Shown here piece after piece: positions 27,063-37,821 of a stretch of 64,000 bases of DNA. A program made the position numbers and the translations under genes. A model generated the notes under the pieces. The model was given only the letters and a program-made list of their open reading frames with translations. It made no database searches and was not told the DNA's origin. The DNA comes from Candidatus Ruthia endofausta (GTDB taxonomy: Bacteria > Pseudomonadota > Gammaproteobacteria > PS1 > Pseudothioglobaceae): assembly GCF_013342985.1 (NCBI RefSeq), contig NZ_CP054490.1, positions 434,001 through 498,000 on the forward strand, written 5' to 3'. Each line of letters begins with the position of its first letter. The stretch's first letter is position 1.

Positions 27063-27806
27063 ATGTCAAAACCAATTATTATCACTGGTTTTCATGCTAT
27101 TCAAGCACAACTAGAATCCAGTCCTGAATGTTTTATTAAGGTCTTTACACTAAACAGCAGGTGTGATAAACGCTTAAATACCCTTACCTCTGAGCTTAAT
27201 AATTTTGGCATTAGTGTTCAGCAGTGCGCCAAAATTCAATTAGATAAATTAAGCAATCATCAAACCCATCAAGGCGTTGCAGCTGAAATATTATTACCTG
27301 CCCTGCCCAATCAAGACGAATTAATCTCTTATGTATCTAAATTGGATAATGCTGGTTTAATTTTAATACTTGATTCTATTCAAGATCCTAGAAATTTGGG
27401 CGCTTGCTTACGCAGTGCTAATGCAGCTGGGGTTGATTATGTGGTCATTAATAAAGATGGCTCAGCACCTATTAACGCACTGGTGCATAAAACTTCTGCA
27501 GGTGCACTTAATCAGCTAAAAATTTTCCAAGTGACCAATTTGTCACGTACCATTAAAGCACTACAGCAACAAAATATTTGGATAATTGGTTTAGATGCTT
27601 CTGCCAATACCTCCATTTACCAAATAGATTTAACCACACCAAATGCTATTATTATGGGCGCTGAAGGCTCTGGTCTTAGAAGGCTAACCAAACAATCTTG
27701 TGATCAATTGGCTAGAATCCCCATGCAAGGCATGGCGGAGAGTTTGAACGTGTCTGTCGCCACAGGGGTGATACTCTTTGAGGTAAATAGACAACGTCTT
27801 TTATAG
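27063..27806 (+). CDS. rlmB: 23S rRNA Gm2251 2'-O-methyltransferase
   Basis: A SPOUT (SpoU) family enzyme that methylates the ribose of G2251 in the peptidyl-transferase region of 23S rRNA. The 247-residue protein has an N-terminal substrate-binding domain and the three SPOUT motifs: LDSIQDPRNLGACLRSANAA, IIMGAEGSGL and IPMQGMAESLNVSVATGVIL. Its ATG directly follows the surA stop, indicating co-transcription with lptD-surA. It converges with the dead iclR. Confidence 0.93.
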   Translation: MSKPIIITGFHAIQAQLESSPECFIKVFTLNSRCDKRLNTLTSELNNFGISVQQCAKIQLDKLSNHQTHQGVAAEILLPALPNQDELISYVSKLDNAGLILILDSIQDPRNLGACLRSANAAGVDYVVINKDGSAPINALVHKTSAGALNQLKIFQVTNLSRTIKALQQQNIWIIGLDASANTSIYQIDLTTPNAIIMGAEGSGLRRLTKQSCDQLARIPMQGMAESLNVSVATGVILFEVNRQRLL

Positions 27807-27809
27807 CTT

Positions 27810-28454
27810 AAAGGTATGTGAATATTGCGCACATATTTGGTTAACAATGATAATAATTCCTTCTGTCTTATATCGTTAAAACGACTAATAGGCCCAGATA
27901 GGGTTAATATCCCTAGAAAATGACCATTATCAGCAATAACTAGCATTGAAATTGTAAACAAAGAAATATTATGTTCATTAACTGAAACATAATAACCCTT
28001 GTCACGAATATTTTTTAAAAACCACTTAAGGTCATTTTTACGCTGACCATAGACCAAAATTATTCACTCTGAAATGCCCCGATTAAGCTCTAATCCAGTA
28101 CCTTAGTCAATACTATGACGAATTTTGTCAAAAAAATCGCCGCGATATAGACAAATACGATGATTATCCTCTTCAATAAAAAAACGAAGCCATTTCATCA
28201 CAGAAAGCATCCCTAATGCCATCAACAATAGCTCTAATTTGGATTAAATGATTAACATTTTTAAAAATAAAGACTTGGGTGCCAATGCAATAGTTTTTGT
28301 CTACAGTACGTACAACGTAGCCATAATCAGCTAAAGTTTGCAATATTCGATACGTGGTTGAGGGATTAAATTCTACCCTGGTGTAAATTTCTTTCAAACT
28401 TAACATGGATTTATCAATAGAAAAAATAGACAAACTTTTTTCTATCACAGTCAT
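27810..28454 (-). pseudogene. iclR: Broken IclR-family transcriptional regulator
   Basis: The first 93 codons from the ATG at 28454 encode the IclR winged-helix (EKSLSIFSIDKSMLSLKEIY, STTYRILQTLADYGYVVR) and then run into frameshifts around 28060-28180. The effector domain resumes in another frame (GYYVSVNEHNISLFTISMLV, FLGILTLSGPISRF) toward 27810. Divergent placement next to aceA matches the enteric IclR, which represses the glyoxylate-shunt operon. With it gone, local control of aceA is presumably lost. Confidence 0.8.
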
Positions 28455-30018: not shown

Positions 30019-31280
30019 ATGGAAAATAATCTTTCAACAATCACTGCAAAAAAAAATACTAAATGGCTTTAAGGTACATTACAAGGCTTTTAAAGAAAGG
30101 CAATGGGTGTAATTATTAAAAGACTCAAAACAAACAAATCTTTTGGAGGGGTAATCTTGTGAAATTCTAGTAATTAGCTCGCCATTTTTCAAAAGAAAAG
30201 CAAATTATCTAATTGGTAAAATTATTTCACACAATAACACATCCCATCCTTTGCTAATTGCCATTCTGAATGATAAAAAAAACTGGCTTATATATGAATG
30301 CTTTGTTAACGAATGTTAGTAGTATCTCTATGGTTTTTGGTTTTTCAAGATCATATTTTTTATTAATATTCACTACTCTGCCGCGATTGTTGATTTTCTA
30401 AAATCAATCTTATCCAGAAAAATTAAAGTAGATTTGTACAGTACAATTGGCTTACACAAACACGGTAAAACTTTGCTTTATGGAACATTTTTAAAATACT
30501 CCAAAGTGACTGATGAGAAATTAATTATTGCACCAGGCATTATAAGGTATGATGATGGTCGTATTCACTTTTTCTATGTTTCCTTATGTTTTTAAGGTGA
30601 TTAATGATAAATTTGCACCCTCTAAATCAAGCACGCCAAAAAAGGTTAAAGATAAATATTTCTTTGTTAAAAGCCATTGCAGAATTGGAGGTTCGGCAGA
30701 TACTTGAGAGTTTTCCAATGTGACATTTCCCATTCGTGATTTAGGCTCAGATTTATTAAAAGAGTTGGCTGATAAAGTTAGTTCTAGTATCTCCATAGAA
30801 GGAGATCTTTTGATTATTAAGCACTTCTATATGGAAAATAAAATGATGCTGTTAAACCTATACATCAACAATACAAATGATAAGCAATTAAAACATATTA
30901 TTAATGATTATGGCAGTGCCATTAATGAGCTTATTAATGCTGATATTTTTCCTGGGGAAATGCTCGCTAAAAATTTTGGCGTAACTCGACAAAATCGAGT
31001 AGTTCTCTATGATTATGATGAAACAATATCAATGAACAGTCCTGTTTTTAGAAAAATTCTAACCGCTAAATATGAAGAGGATGAAATGGCATCTGAACTT
31101 TGGTATTACGTAGGTCCAAATGATGTATCTCCAGAAGAGTTTAAATTTTCTATCTTTTCTGATCAGAAAAGATAGACAAATATTTAACCAGCATTATAAC
31201 AAATTACTAGATATTGACTATTGGCAAACAATACACAACAGCAGACAAATCAGACAAATTACAATCATTGCAGCGCCATA
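30019..31280 (+). pseudogene. aceK: Ruined isocitrate dehydrogenase kinase/phosphatase
   Basis: Fragments in family order, in changing frames, include ILNGFKVHYKAFKERQW near the start, then FVFKVINDKFAPSKS-like and KDKYFFVKSHCRIGG pieces. A long readable stretch at 30720-31172 contains DIFPGEMLAKNFGVTRQNRV and VLYDYDE, a hallmark of AceK. The tail LLDIDYWQTIHNSRQ lies in another frame. Many stops and frameshifts make it non-functional, although a 151-codon frame survives inside. AceK switches isocitrate dehydrogenase off to send isocitrate to AceA. Confidence 0.88.
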
Positions 31281-31284
31281 ATTA

Positions 31285-32738
31285 GTGGTACCAATTTCCA
31301 GTGTGCGCTTTGCACTAAATGCAATTAATGCTTGCTGGAGAAGTTTGTATGATGCGTTGTATGTTAGCAACGTTATTGCAAATAAAGACAAAACTTCTAT
31401 TGGCTCTAGTTATAACCCAGTTTGTTGTTCAGTGAGTTAATGACTTTTTAGATAAAACAATATCATTAGCTGATGGTTCTTATTCACAGCTTAAATCCAT
31501 CAACATACAACAAAACAAATTAGAATTTACACTAGACAATGGAAATCATACACAACTAAGTAAATACACAGGCTTATCGAAATTTTCTAGGTTTAGTGAG
31601 AGAAAGACTTGAAAGTGGCTTTTCAAAAAGGCGATCGAACAATCAATCGAAGTATTAACCAAAATAAGCTGTACACCAAAATATCAGGTGAATCTGGCAT
31701 ATTATCTACCACAAGCTTGATACTAGTGCATAACGTGGATCATCATATGCTCTCAGATTTAATTAAAAATAGTAACGGCGATGAACTTGGTGAGGGTATT
31801 TTGGACACCATGGTAACAACATTAATTAGTATGCACGACTTAGAAAAATCACGTACAAACTCAACAACAGATAGCATTTACATTGTCAAACCAAAAATTC
31901 ATGGTCCAGAAGAAGTGGACTTTACCGTAAAGCTGTTTGCCAAAATAGAAAAGGCACTAAGGCTTAAAAAAATACCATTAAAGTAGGCATCATAGATGAG
32001 GACGGCGGCGTACTAGTATTAATTTAAAGGCTTGTATTAAAGCTGCTAAAAATAGAGTCATCTTCATCAATACAGGCTTTTTAGACCGTACTGGTGATGA
32101 AATACACACCGGCATGTTAGCAAGCCACCATAGTGGCTAGAAATGACATTAAAAATGAGCCATGGATTCAGGCTTATGATCGACAAAGGCATGTGACACA
32201 AGCAGACCCAGATGAGTGAGATGCTTGAACAAAAAATGACGCATCTTTTAATAGGGGCAAATTGTGCTTGGGTGCCCTCATCCACTGCAGCAACACTATA
32301 CGCTACACATTATAGTTAATTTGATATTTTTAAAAGACAAGTTGAGCTAATGAATGGTGGCATTAATCAGGATGATTTATTAGTCATTTCGCTGATGAAT
32401 GGCAATACCAAATTAACTATAATGATGCCATTCAAAAAGAATTAAATAACAATACTCAAAGTATTTTAGGCTATGTAGTCAAATGGATAAATCAAGGTAT
32501 TGGTTGCTCCAAAGTGCAAGATATTAATCATATTGGCTTAATGGAAGATAGAGCCACATTTCAAATTTTTAGCCAGCATATAGCCAACTGGATAGAGTAC
32601 AAAATCTGTAGTAAAGTACAAGTTGAAAAGACTTTTAGAACAATGACCATTGTTGTAGATCAACAAAACAAAAATGGCTCTTATTATGTCAGCATGGCAC
32701 CTCTAAGTATGCTAGCTATACATTTCAAGCAGCTTTAG
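31285..32738 (+). pseudogene. glcB: Ruined malate synthase G
   Basis: Fragments in family order are [19 protein letters not shown], then HGPEEVDFTVKLFAKIEKAL inside a 125-codon frame at 31609-31986. They continue with [35 protein letters not shown] and ILGYVVKWINQGIGCSKVQD followed by GLMEDRATFQIFSQHIANW. All are malate synthase G motifs, but they are spread over several frames with stops, and the first quarter is missing. This enzyme would condense glyoxylate with acetyl-CoA. The remnant ends at the 3' end of the convergent rhodanese gene. Confidence 0.9.
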
Positions 32739-32740
32739 CA

Positions 32741-33055
32741 CTAGTATTGCACCATTGAATCATCAAGTTGTTTAGCCCAAGCATCAATTCCACCACGTAG
32801 GTTAATAATACGACCAAAGCCAATAGACTCAAAATAACGCGCAACTTGCATTGAACGAATACCGTGGTGACAAATGAGCACCGTTTCTTCTGACCTATCC
32901 AAGGTATCTAGGTTGGTCATAATTTCCCCCATGGGTAATAATTTTGCCTTATCAAAATGACACTTGTCCCACTCCCATTGTTCTCGAACATCTAGCATTA
33001 ACGGATGGTTGTGTTTTAAATGCACTCTTAGTTCAGATGGCGTGAAATTCTTCAT
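32741..33055 (-). CDS. Single-domain rhodanese-like sulfurtransferase
   Basis: A 104-residue rhodanese fold with LMLDVREQWEWDKCHFDKAK and the active-site loop LICHHGIRSMQVARYFES, the cysteine being the sulfur carrier. Such GlpE/PspE-like proteins move sulfane sulfur or buffer persulfides in the cytoplasm; no signal peptide is present. It lies 19 bp after the broken VWA gene on the same strand and may once have been co-transcribed with it. Unlike its neighbours it is intact. Confidence 0.88.
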   Translation of the reverse strand: MKNFTPSELRVHLKHNHPLMLDVREQWEWDKCHFDKAKLLPMGEIMTNLDTLDRSEETVLICHHGIRSMQVARYFESIGFGRIINLRGGIDAWAKQLDDSMVQY

Positions 33056-33074: not shown

Positions 33075-34528
33075 TTAATTTAATTGAATGCGATGCCCCC
33101 ATGGCACATTTTCTTTACCTTTAACAAACCACATCACTGGATAACTTGGTTCAAATTCTGGGAATTTTCCCTTAGCATCGGTAAAGTAAATTAACACACT
33201 AGAGGCGGTGTCTTGCACGCTAACATAATCAAAAACAGGGTTAAAATTAGTGCCTTTGCCACCACCTAATGATACTGGAAATGTTAACTCGTCCCAAGCC
33301 TCAAAACGCCATATCAGCTCTTTACTGATTTTTTCATCACAAGCAATCAATGTAATTGAAGCACGTATATTGCTTTTAATGGCATTGATTTCTGCCACAA
33401 ACTCATTAATCTCATCTTTAGAAATTGAGCCAGAAGTATCAATGGCAACAGTAATATCAATTTGGCTAGATCTAGGTGATGGTAATATTGCATTGCCACT
33501 ACGACGTGATGGTCTAGCATAGGAGAAATCATCACGTGCAAATAATTTAACAAATTCACCGCTCAATTTTCCCGCTTGTTGTGCAAGTTGTGCGCTTGAG
33601 GCAAGATTTTTTTGCCATTTACTGCTTAATTGTTGAATTTCATCAGGTGTTAAAGGATTGGGTTTATCTGCTAAACCAGAGGAATTTGTGTTATTTTGAT
33701 GATTATTTTTGTCGTTGTCTTTTCTTAAATTGCTTTGTAAGTCACCCTCACACAGCCCCCATCAGACTCATTTGCGTCATCTTTTGGATCGTCATCATAT
33801 AAATGTTGGTCCATGGGTTCAGTATCAATACTATCATCAATCATTGGGTAGATTTCTTCTGCAATCATACCTTTATATTTATGAAAAATAGGCAAATCAA
33901 GTGGCGGATGAAACCCCTCTTTTACCAAAAGTGGATTAATAGCAAAATCGCAAGCTAAATCCCATTTATGTTTAAGCCGATTGCCACAACGAGAAAAATG
34001 CGTTAATGCACAATGCAAGGCTTCATGAATAAGAACAAACTTAACTTGATGATTATCAAGCTGGTTAATAAAACTTGGATTGTAGTAAAAACTTTTGGCA
34101 TCAGTAGCACTGGTCCTACACCAAGAGCCAGCAGCTTTAAGCGGTAATCGAAGTACTAAATTACCCAAAAAAGGCTTGTCAAGAATAAGTTGTGTGCGTG
34201 CTTTAGTTAGTTTTGCTTTAATTGCTTGTAAGTCAATGTTATCAATGTTGTTTTCAATCATAACATCTTCACCAATAACTTTTACCTGCGGTTCAAGCTC
34301 AATGTTGTTTTGCCAAAATTGATAGTTTATTTTAACCATGGGCGTATGATATAAGCTTGATTTAATAATAGCAAATTTTTCGCTGTCTGATAATTCAATT
34401 TTTAGAAATAGTTGTCTGTCTTCTAATCGAGAATGAGACTTTAATAAGCCACCAAAGCTTAGCAAGTATTCTGGATGATTAGGTAAATCTTTAGCTAGCT
34501 TATACAATCGTTGATGTTCATCAATCAA
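33075..34528 (-). pseudogene. VWA-like putative metallopeptidase (DUF2201 type), frameshifted
   Basis: One gene of about 484 codons appears as two frames. The N-terminal part (34528-33725, TTG start) carries the zinc motif LIHEALHCALTH and DLACDFAINPLL. The C-terminal part carries a von Willebrand A domain with the MIDAS motif AIDTSGSIS. The frames join smoothly if one G is restored in a five-G run (plus-strand CCCCC at 33756-33760): the reading then passes through EGDLQSNLRKDNDKN into the VWA part. The MoxR ATPase upstream is the usual partner, and it is broken too. Function of the pair is unknown. The single indel could be recent decay, slippage-corrected expression or an assembly error. 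Confidence 0.8.
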
Positions 34529-34559
34529 TTGGTATAAATATCACTAATAAAATCAAGCT

Positions 34560-34888
34560 TGATAAATCCAAGAATTTAGAATTTTTTAACTCATAATCAA
34601 GCCCCAACCCGCGCTCAATAAAAAAAAATCAACCTTCTTATCATCATAAAAATCAGACTCAATACCAAATAAAAACCCGCAATAATCGTCATTGTGTAGG
34701 CAAAAATCATCTCATGCGCATGCCAAATAGTACTGTTGATATTGCTAGTTAATATCGATGTGTGAAAAAACACTCCACAACAACATTGAAAAAACACTAA
34801 CTAAACCTGCTTGCCATAAAAAACACTCTAAATCCTGAGCGTAAAAAGGCGTTATTGGATAGGTGTTATTTTGATTAGGGCTAATCAT
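34560..34888 (-). pseudogene. N-terminal remnant of an NnrS-like membrane protein
   Basis: Pieces on the minus strand start MISPNQNNTYPITPFYAQDL, pass FLWQAGLVSVFSMLLW, and include WHAHEMIFAYTMTIIAGFYL. The last piece matches the conserved WHAHEM...AGF segment of NnrS, a haem/copper membrane protein tied to nitric-oxide metabolism. Only the first two helices remain, with frameshifts and stops. It sits between the MoxR and VWA genes. Confidence 0.6.
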
Positions 34889-34893
34889 CGGTT

Positions 34894-35934
34894 TTAGTCA
34901 AACATGACATCGGCAATTTTATTTACCCAATCGGAAAATTCAGAAATGGTAAAAATGTCACCGCCAATGGCGTGCTGCATATCTGATACTAGCATAACGC
35001 CCAATTCTTTTTGTGGAAAATTTTTAGCAAAATTAAGAATATTACCCCACACTTTTTCAGCATGATCGGTACCTTTAACGCCGATTGCTCTACCTGCTAG
35101 TGCTGCACAAATTGCATATTGCAAATCAAGCTCTTTGGGAATTGAGACGCTTTCGCCATTAATAATAGCATTAAGATCAGGCAAATTAGCCATGTGTTCA
35201 ACAAACGTGGTAATTTCAACCCCTGCCACTTCACCAACACAAGCGCTAGCAGCCTGCCTAAATAAAGACAAATCAGTGCCAAATTTATTCAGCGCCCTAT
35301 GTACAAATTCCCAAGTTCTTGGTGAAGGAAAGGCAACTGGGTTGTGTTTAGCATCAAACTCAAACAAATGCTCAGGACGGTAGCGCAAAAAACCAATAAT
35401 ACGCTCATCAATGTTGTTTTCATATGCCCACGCCACCCAATCATCCAAGTTAACATCAAGCGCAAAATGCGAAAATCGATTTGCCAAAGGTGCAGGCATG
35501 GAATAAGTAACACCTCGATCACCTTGACGATTGCCTGCAGCAAATATCACCCAACCCTCAGGCACAATATAATCACCTAAACGACGGTCAAGAATGAGTT
35601 GATAAGCCGCTGCTGATACGGTCGGTGGTGCTGAGGTAATTTCATCAAGAAACAAAATACCTTGCTCGCCATGACGCTTTGAATCGGGCAATAATGAAGG
35701 CACTGACCACTCAACCAAACCTCCATTTTTAAACGGTATGCCATGAAGGTCACTAGGCTCCATTTGTGATAAGCGAATACCAATGATATTAACCCCATTC
35801 TTGGTCGCCACTTAAAAGATGATTTGGGACTTACCAATTCCTGGTGCACCCCATAACATAACAGGTGTATGATGGCCTTGCATCACTGATATTAACTCTT
35901 CATTAAGAATTTTACTGACTTGCTCTGGACGCAT
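34894..35934 (-). pseudogene. MoxR-type AAA+ ATPase with a premature stop at codon 41
   Basis: From the ATG at 35934 the frame reads to VMLWGAPGIGKSQIIF, which holds the Walker A motif, then hits TAA at 35812-35814. After it the same frame continues to 34894 with VATKNGVNIIGIRLSQMEPS, Walker B GILFLDEITSAP, AAGNRQGDRG and PSPRTWEFV. The total of 346 codons is a normal MoxR length. One base change (CAA to TAA) would explain the stop. A GTG restart right after it would make a protein without Walker A. MoxR ATPases act with VWA proteins, and the linked VWA gene is also broken. Confidence 0.82.
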
Positions 35935-35996: not shown

Positions 35997-36275
35997 ATGA
36001 TTACCGCTAATCCCACTCCAAAAGCACTGTTTAATTCCCCTTGCGATTACCCTATTAAGATACTTGGCAAAGATTGTGAAGCGCTTCAGCACACAATTTG
36101 CAGCATTGTTGAGCGTCACACTGACAAATTACACCCCAATCAAATAACAAAAAAGTACAGTTCTAAAGGTAGTTATGTATCTTTTACCATCCGTATTATT
36201 GTCAGTAGTAGAGCTCAATTAGATACCATTAATCAAGATTTACAAGACTGCCATCTAGTGTCTTATGTTTTATAA
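35997..36275 (+). CDS. ybeD: DUF493 family protein YbeD
   Basis: A 92-residue protein of the DUF493 / UPF0250 family, with the pattern FNSPCDYPIKILGKDCEALQ and SYVSFTIRIIVSSRAQLDTI. The fold is ferredoxin-like and the function unproven. A position just ahead of lipB, with a 6-bp gap, is conserved in gammaproteobacteria and suggests a link to lipoate metabolism. Confidence 0.85.
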   Translation: MITANPTPKALFNSPCDYPIKILGKDCEALQHTICSIVERHTDKLHPNQITKKYSSKGSYVSFTIRIIVSSRAQLDTINQDLQDCHLVSYVL

Positions 36276-36281
36276 ATTCTT

Positions 36282-36896
36282 ATGCGTATTATCAACTTGG
36301 GGCGTCAAGACTATTTAAACATCTGGGAACGGATGAAAATATTTACTAACACTCGTGATAAAAACACTCAAGATGAGTTGTGGATTGTAGAGCACAGCCC
36401 TGTATTTACGCAAGGTATTTCTAGTAAACCAGAATATGTTTTGTCAAGCAGTAATATTCCCATTATTCAAACCGATCGTGGCGGACAAATTACTTATCAC
36501 GGCCCTGGTCAAGCGGTTATTTATTGTTTAATTGACCTCAAACGTCTTGAGATTGGGATTAAAAAAATGATTGAAATCATTGAAAATTCAATCATTGATT
36601 TATTAAAAACTTACGCCATTAAAGCGCATCTAAAATCAGGTGCACCGGGTGTGTATGTTAATAACGCTAAAATTGCAGCGCTGGGCTTAAAGGTTAAACA
36701 ATCAAAAATTTATCATGGTTTGAGCTTTAATGTGGATATGGACTTGTCTCCATTTATGCAAATTAATCCCTGTGGATATCAAGGCTTGAAAGTAACACAG
36801 CTTTGTGATTTAACGGGTAATAGCGATACCTTAAATACCGTTGCTGAGAAACTTAGCCTAATACTTATTAATTATGTTACAAGAAATAGACATTAA
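36282..36896 (+). CDS. lipB: Octanoyl-[ACP]:protein octanoyltransferase
   Basis: LipB moves octanoate from acyl carrier protein to lipoyl domains, the first step of lipoate synthesis. The 204-residue protein carries [40 protein letters not shown] with the catalytic lysine, and [14 protein letters not shown] with the catalytic cysteine. Its end overlaps the lipA start by 23 bp. Confidence 0.95.
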
Positions 36897-37821
36897 AAGC
36901 CTAAAAGGCAAATCCAAAGTAGCGCGCTTAAAAATTAAGCCTGATGCTGACAAACTACCCATTAGAAAGCCAAGTTGGATTCGCATTAAACACACTGCGG
37001 GCTCAAAAGTTGATGAATTAAAACACACACTTCGATTACAAAGATTATTTACAGTTTGTGAAGAAGCGCAATGTCCAAATTTAAGCGAGTGTTTTAATCA
37101 TGGTACTGCCACTTTTATGGTTATGGGACAAATTTGCACGCGTCGTTGCCCATTTTGCGATGTGGCTCATGGCAAGCCAAAAGCGCTTGATCTAGATGAG
37201 CCTAAACATTTGGCTGATACCATTAAAAAAATGCAGCTTAAATATGTGGTGATTACGTCAGTAGATAGGGATGATTTACGTGATGGCGGCGCTCAACATT
37301 TTAAAATGTGCATTGATAATATCAGGCTAAACACGCCCAAAGTAAAAATTGAAATTTTAACACCAGATTTCAGAGGTAGGATTGATAAAGCACTTAAAGT
37401 CTTTAAATCTTGCCCGCCTGATGTCTTTAATCATAATCTGGAAACAGTGCCAAGCTTATACCCAAAAGTTCGCCCTGGTGCAAATTATGAGCATTCATTA
37501 AGGCTACTTAAAGAATTTAAACAACAACACCCATTTGTTATTACCAAATCAGGATTAATGCTAGGGGTGGGTGAAAGTAAAAAACAAGTTATTGATGTAT
37601 TAAAAAACTTGCGCACACACAATGTAGATATGCTTACCCTAGGTCAGTATTTACAGCCAAGTAAACATCATTTGGCTGTTGAGGCGTATATTCATCCGAA
37701 TCAATTTGATAAATACAAAAAAATTGCACTTAAGCTAGGCTTTCTTCAAGTTGCTAGCGGACCTATGGTACGTTCTTCTTACCATGCTGATTTACAAGTC
37801 AAGGGCGAGTTAATGAGTTAA
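36874..37821 (+). CDS. lipA: Lipoyl synthase
   Basis: A radical-SAM enzyme that inserts two sulfurs into protein-bound octanoate. The 315-residue protein has the auxiliary cluster motif [12 protein letters not shown], the radical-SAM [15 protein letters not shown], and the C-terminal VRSSYHAD with the serine ligand of the auxiliary cluster. It completes the ybeD-lipB-lipA operon. Confidence 0.97.

Follow-up and report, generated by a model that had tools for sequence, protein, structure and literature searches.

The moxR gene analysed here, which would encode a MoxR-type AAA+ ATPase, is a pseudogene within a decaying operon, and on balance we favour the explanation that MoxR, its VWA-protein partner and DsrS together mature or reactivate a component of the reverse dissimilatory sulfite reductase (rDsr) system, and that these symbionts can do without this activity. 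As a pseudogene the gene is ordinary. It lies in a stretch of 64,000 nucleotides (hereafter the window, G000:C1:434001-498000) of a genome designated G000, a single contig of 1,188,809 bases (completeness 99.97) in which the moxR locus is present once. The source, a sulfur oxidiser, is a close relative of the symbionts of vesicomyid clams, and it is from this kinship that the label “clam symbiont” is inferred.

The decayed moxR operon

The features of the locus are as follows.
34894..35934, minus strand: moxR pseudogene (MoxR-type AAA+ ATPase), a 346-codon frame with one nonsense codon
35812..35814, minus strand: TAA at codon 41 of moxR, absent from the sister genome G002 and from seven translated relatives
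34524..34888, minus strand: nnrS remnants (NnrS family; 393 amino acids in G004), four fragments with large deletions
34328..34531, minus strand: C-terminal remnant of a hemerythrin-domain gene (147 amino acids in G004), N-terminal half gone
33755..34339, minus strand: 5' part of the vwa pseudogene (DUF2201_N, putative metallopeptidase domain), start codon deleted
33078..33758, minus strand: 3' part of the vwa pseudogene (DUF2201 VWA-like domain), downstream of a 1-bp frameshift
32741..33055, minus strand: rhodanese-domain gene, an open frame and the last gene of the former operon
35997..36275, plus strand: DUF493 gene, a conserved divergent neighbour
36282..37821, plus strand: lipB-lipA, conserved neighbours used in the tree

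The moxR frame runs from an ATG start to a terminal TAA and showed no indel when aligned to relatives. A preliminary description of this DNA had held that the codon 41 TAA is the only internal stop and that it falls just past Walker A; the translation indeed shows no other stop, and GAPGIGKS lies a few residues upstream. The consensus of 67 MoxR rows keeps the stretches WG.PG.GKS and LFLDEITS, which we take to be the Walker A and Walker B motifs, and in the window copy the first stands before the stop and the second after it. Codon 41 is a sense codon in all seven translated relatives (7/7). The intact MoxR orthologue of G004 matched AAA_5 (34.2 bits against a cut-off of 22), and a Pfam search of the stop-shortened window ORF gave no match.

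The intact operon of G004 (L051) reads moxR-nnrS-hemerythrin-vwa and runs divergently from DUF493-lipB-lipA; several members of the family, G004 not among them, have a rhodanese gene after vwa. The earlier name for the module, moxR-VWA-rhodanese, covers part of it and omits nnrS, hemerythrin and, elsewhere, dsrS and the dsr operon. The VWA partner had been described as carrying just one lesion, but the window copy has three: an 11-bp deletion has removed the vwa start codon together with the end of the hemerythrin gene, a 1-bp deletion at codon 195 (near 33757) causes a frameshift, and 63 bp are gone in frame at codon 268 (near 33542), this last being found in neither G002 nor G011. The G004 VWA protein matched PF13203 (130 bits) and PF09967 (77 bits), both over cut-off, and the corresponding window sequence is split across two ORFs. 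An HExxH metallopeptidase motif is present in 47 of the 53 VWA rows with letters at that place, the other six having D or Q for E. As separate observations, similar 151-amino-acid ORFs recur every 600 bases downstream of vwa in G004 (L051, 12377-15832), and in G014 the full vwa is preceded, some 2 kb upstream, by a copy of its N-terminal part (L061, 8763-9134).

Other genes of this genome are also decayed. Between 28617 and 31986 of the window the isocitrate lyase frame is open, AceK (30720-31175) is a fragment only and malate synthase G survives only as fragments (31255-31561 and 31609-31986); a fragment of an IclR-type regulator (27704-28057) adjoins these glyoxylate genes. Outside the window, narG is decayed into many pieces (G000:C1:631049-632954), while it is whole in G001, G004, G005, G006, G008 and G009.

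Order of loss and selection on moxR

A tree built from the neighbouring RND pump, lipA, lipB and DUF493 genes placed G002 as sister to G000 (support 100), followed by G011 (support 65), with other nodes within the genus partly weak. Two vwa lesions, the 1-bp deletion at codon 195 together with the changes that flank it and the 11-bp deletion across the start, are common to G000 and G002 and absent from G011; the moxR of G002 carries its own 1-bp insertion and large deletions and no codon 41 stop. As the frameshift and start loss of vwa are shared with G002 and the moxR stop is private to G000, the VWA gene died before the two lineages split and moxR after it, separately in G000 and G002. The idea of a recent double hit, with moxR and vwa each struck once, is rejected by the lesions shared with G002, which make the vwa damage older than the moxR stop; nor were these two single hits, given the three vwa lesions and the additional loss of nnrS and hemerythrin.

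The first moxR lesion differs among the six genomes of the genus in which the gene is broken (the codon 41 stop in G000, codon 31 in G002, codon 39 in G003, codon 100 in G005, codon 19 in G006 and a codon 12 stop in G009). G009 may begin moxR at a later start, so its intactness is doubtful, and its vwa lacks the usual start, so that the protein would begin further in. moxR is open in G001, G004, G007, G008, G010 and G011 and vwa is open in the same six, although the usual vwa start is missing in G001 and an internal start would be needed. This pattern of breaks suggests that the MoxR-VWA machine was lost several times in the group.

The private codon changes of G000 moxR comprise 13 non-synonymous (counting the nonsense change) and 6 synonymous, compared to 39 non-synonymous and 82 synonymous private changes pooled over G004, G007, G008, G010 and G011 (Fisher p=0.004). 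The private changes in G000 thus show relaxed selection on moxR, which supports the earlier suggestion that the pair had become dispensable and that moxR is drifting. Across 152 MoxR positions whose conservation reaches 95% or more in 59 rows taken outside the genus, G000 has the private substitutions D52G, R64H and R321H in addition to F14L, which is genus-wide and is the sole departure in G004, G007, G008 and G011. Beyond F14L, G010 departs at one conserved position, G009 at three and G001, with an unbroken moxR, at four; as the unbroken G001 also departs, such departures are by themselves no proof of loss.

Association with the reverse sulfite reductase genes and DsrS

A survey of 369 genomes of the class (match thresholds E<=1e-40 for moxR and E<=1e-60 for dsrA) found moxR in 107, dsrA in 117, soxB in 150 and aprA in 106; the G322 match to moxR, with 41% identity, is a possible paralogue. 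moxR and dsrA were found together in 95 genomes, moxR only in 12, dsrA only in 22 and neither in 240, with Fisher p-values for co-occurrence that ignore the common ancestry and lifestyle of the genomes. Within the 58 relatives, moxR was present in 35 and dsrA over cut-off in 34, the exceptions being G025 with dsrA only and G016 and G027 with moxR and a fragmented dsrA; in G015 moxR is missing and dsrA is a fragment. Of the 21 genomes outside the family, five had moxR, and it was these five that had dsrA over cut-off. Since 22 of the 117 dsrA-bearing genomes lack moxR, and since rDsr persists in the window's genus where the pair is gone, the pair is not essential. Five of the genomes with dsrA and no moxR (G075, G177, G289, G321 and G384) are 1.0-1.1 Mb in size and are also without DsrS.

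Gene position gives a second line of association. moxR and dsrA lie on the same contig in 31 of the 95 genomes with both, and within 25 kb of each other in 17 of these 31, from 11 families; among single-contig genomes, only 2 of 13 moxR-dsrA pairs are within 25 kb. Eight of the 17 close loci were selected for reading. L133 and L139, from one genus, have the order dsrABEFHCMKLJOPNR-moxR-vwa-third gene, L132, from a different family, has moxR-vwa-third gene-dsrA on one strand, and in the remaining five moxR is near dsr. In L153 and L154, from two families, the third gene stands directly after dsr...NR. We take dsrS to be the gene that closes the dsr operon, behind dsrN-dsrR, and the position of the third gene directly 3' of dsrR in these two loci led us to name it DsrS, by position. 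vwa adjoins moxR in all 18 moxR-bearing loci read, and the third gene follows vwa within 2 kb in 16 of the 18 (not in L136 or L157); in part of the window's family nnrS and hemerythrin separate moxR from vwa. Seven of these 18 loci (L039-L045) had been found by similarity to moxR, in a search whose eighth outside-family locus (L046) was left out, and the third gene is present in all seven, in L044 in pieces at a contig end. It matched no model in Pfam or NCBIfam; the predicted DsrS-like fold (six sequences, mean pLDDT 64.3) is mostly helical, shows nothing further and had no PDB match at E<=0.001. In the window's genus, both dsrS and moxR-vwa are located away from the dsr operon.

Some other neighbours were noted in passing. 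In L041 and L045 the gene directly after moxR-vwa-dsrS is a CysG-like siroheme synthase (by Pfam in L045, as a similar ORF in L041), and an S24-peptidase gene is also among the neighbours of such loci. A search of plasmids for moxR returned 8 records, every one below 60% identity.

DsrS was then scored in 80 genomes picked by state, including 24 chosen of the 95 with moxR and dsrA and 22 chosen of the 36 with soxB only. It was present in 23/24 genomes with moxR and dsrA and in 9/12 with moxR only (32/36 with moxR in total), in 4/22 with dsrA but without moxR (two of the four being partial) and in 0/22 with soxB and neither of the others. In the 58 relatives a DsrS match, counting broken copies, was found in 35, a set identical to that with moxR apart from G015 and G017. 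Seven members of the genus (G000, G001, G004, G007, G008, G010 and G011) have an uninterrupted dsrS; the gene carries a single stop in G009 and is broken in G002, G003, G005 and G006. The state of this unlinked gene equals that of moxR/vwa in 11 of 12 genomes (p=0.015), the exception being G000 itself, or in 10 of 12 (p=0.07) if the G009 moxR is counted as intact; the corresponding agreement is 6/12 for narG and 7/12 for nnrS. The other 14 dsr genes (dsrABEFHCMKLJOPNR) showed no stop in their aligned parts by tblastn in 12/12 genomes, the matches for dsrJ and dsrR being weak or part-length in some. In G003 (L143, L161), dsrJ, dsrN and dsrR (the last in part) were matched without stops and dsrS is broken. 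According to a 2008 genome comparison (PMC2642828), dsrJNRS are encoded by V. okutanii and are absent from R. magnifica.

In other genomes, then, the MoxR-VWA pair together with DsrS tracks the rDsr gene set, which is an association only. It could also arise if the pair served some other need of sulfur lithotrophs, followed rDsr through lifestyle and descent and was lost here by generic genome reduction, an account that we consider less likely. aprA and soxB correlate with moxR as well (phi 0.72 and 0.69, compared to 0.78 for dsrA, in the 369 genomes), the 12 of 107 moxR-bearing genomes counted above as moxR only had no dsrA at the threshold, and moxR occurs in 5 of the 8 genomes with aprA and no dsrA. 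Against this, soxB alone predicts moxR poorly (9/45 soxB-bearing genomes without dsrA, compared to 91/105 with it), and moxR is kept in 15 of 19 genomes with dsrA and no aprA. Moreover, some loci have moxR-vwa within the dsr operon or next to it, and in the genus it is the unlinked dsrS that decays with the pair while other dsr genes do not.

Proposed role of the MoxR-VWA pair

Under the favoured explanation, a role in rDsr maturation or reactivation, MoxR would act as an AAA+ motor and the VWA protein as its substrate adaptor, in the manner of NorQ/NorD and CbbQ/CbbO. By this analogy the pair may, helped by DsrS, mature one of the Dsr components or return it to activity, and if the module is helpful and not essential, host-bound lineages could lose the pair and keep the other dsr genes. 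The metallopeptidase-like domain of the VWA protein, with its HExxH motif, also makes a processing role possible. A more specific proposal, which we put forward only tentatively, is that MoxR, DUF2201-VWA and DsrS form a dedicated rDsr activase or maturase in which DsrS is a third subunit or the link to the enzyme.

In PMC9976466 and PMC13036017, NorQD is described as needed for iron insertion into the nitric oxide reductase of Paracoccus denitrificans, and these, with PMC4660213, assign the motor function in NorQD and CbbQO to the MoxR ring and the adaptor function to the VWA protein. The present system resembles NorQ/NorD in pairing a MoxR AAA+ ATPase with a VWA protein encoded beside the system served, but its partner is a DUF2201 protein with an N-terminal metallopeptidase-like domain and its gene set is that of rDsr and DsrS. 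It shares with the CbbQ/CbbO rubisco activase, as presented in PMC4660213, a MoxR motor and a VWA substrate adaptor in a chemolithoautotroph, whereas the link here is to rDsr. RavA/ViaA of Escherichia coli, for which PMC3893208 reports synthetic lethality with isc, cys and nap-ccm, is likewise a MoxR/VWA pair, and differs in that the pair described here is linked to dissimilatory sulfur oxidation. The third gene agrees with DsrS of the dsr operon in its place after dsrN-dsrR and differs in that the gene in the window's genus is away from the dsr operon.

Another reading is a nitric oxide or denitrification module, in which MoxR-VWA would act like NorQ/NorD together with NnrS and hemerythrin; it fits the gene order in G004 and further family members, where nnrS and hemerythrin separate moxR from vwa. 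We nevertheless rejected it as very unlikely, as narG and COX1 did not track the pair: the state of narG agrees with that of moxR/vwa in only half of the genus genomes, and COX1-family matches, from which NorB was not separated, number 1 to 3 per genus genome in the same way for broken and unbroken pairs. Furthermore, G014 and G016 keep moxR-vwa with no nnrS or hemerythrin match, and neither gene was matched in 13 more distant loci (some with short flanks). A functional MoxR, with the stop either read through or due to a mistake in the assembly, is hardly credible. In favour of this reading, the stop is one base change in an otherwise open frame; against it, the stop is accompanied by the three vwa lesions, the nnrS and hemerythrin losses, a raised rate of amino-acid change in moxR and separate breaks in relatives.

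The preliminary description had also called the function of the pair poorly described, and this is fair: a literature search, with most subscription papers outside its scope, found no paper joining “DUF2201” and “MoxR”, none among the matches listed joined MoxR with dsrAB or dsrS, and a word search of PMC11406059 found neither MoxR nor AAA. The link of MoxR-VWA-DsrS to rDsr looks new in the literature searched. DsrS is a dsr gene without a settled function, and no target was found to be assigned to the DUF2201 MoxR pair; linking the two gives a testable set of partners and a first candidate MoxR/VWA machine for the reverse sulfite reductase, a sulfur-oxidation enzyme of many Gammaproteobacteria. 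The separate losses within the symbiont genus provide ready natural comparisons and, if the proposal is true, the clam symbionts would serve as natural knock-outs, with an rDsr that works in the absence of MoxR-VWA-DsrS.
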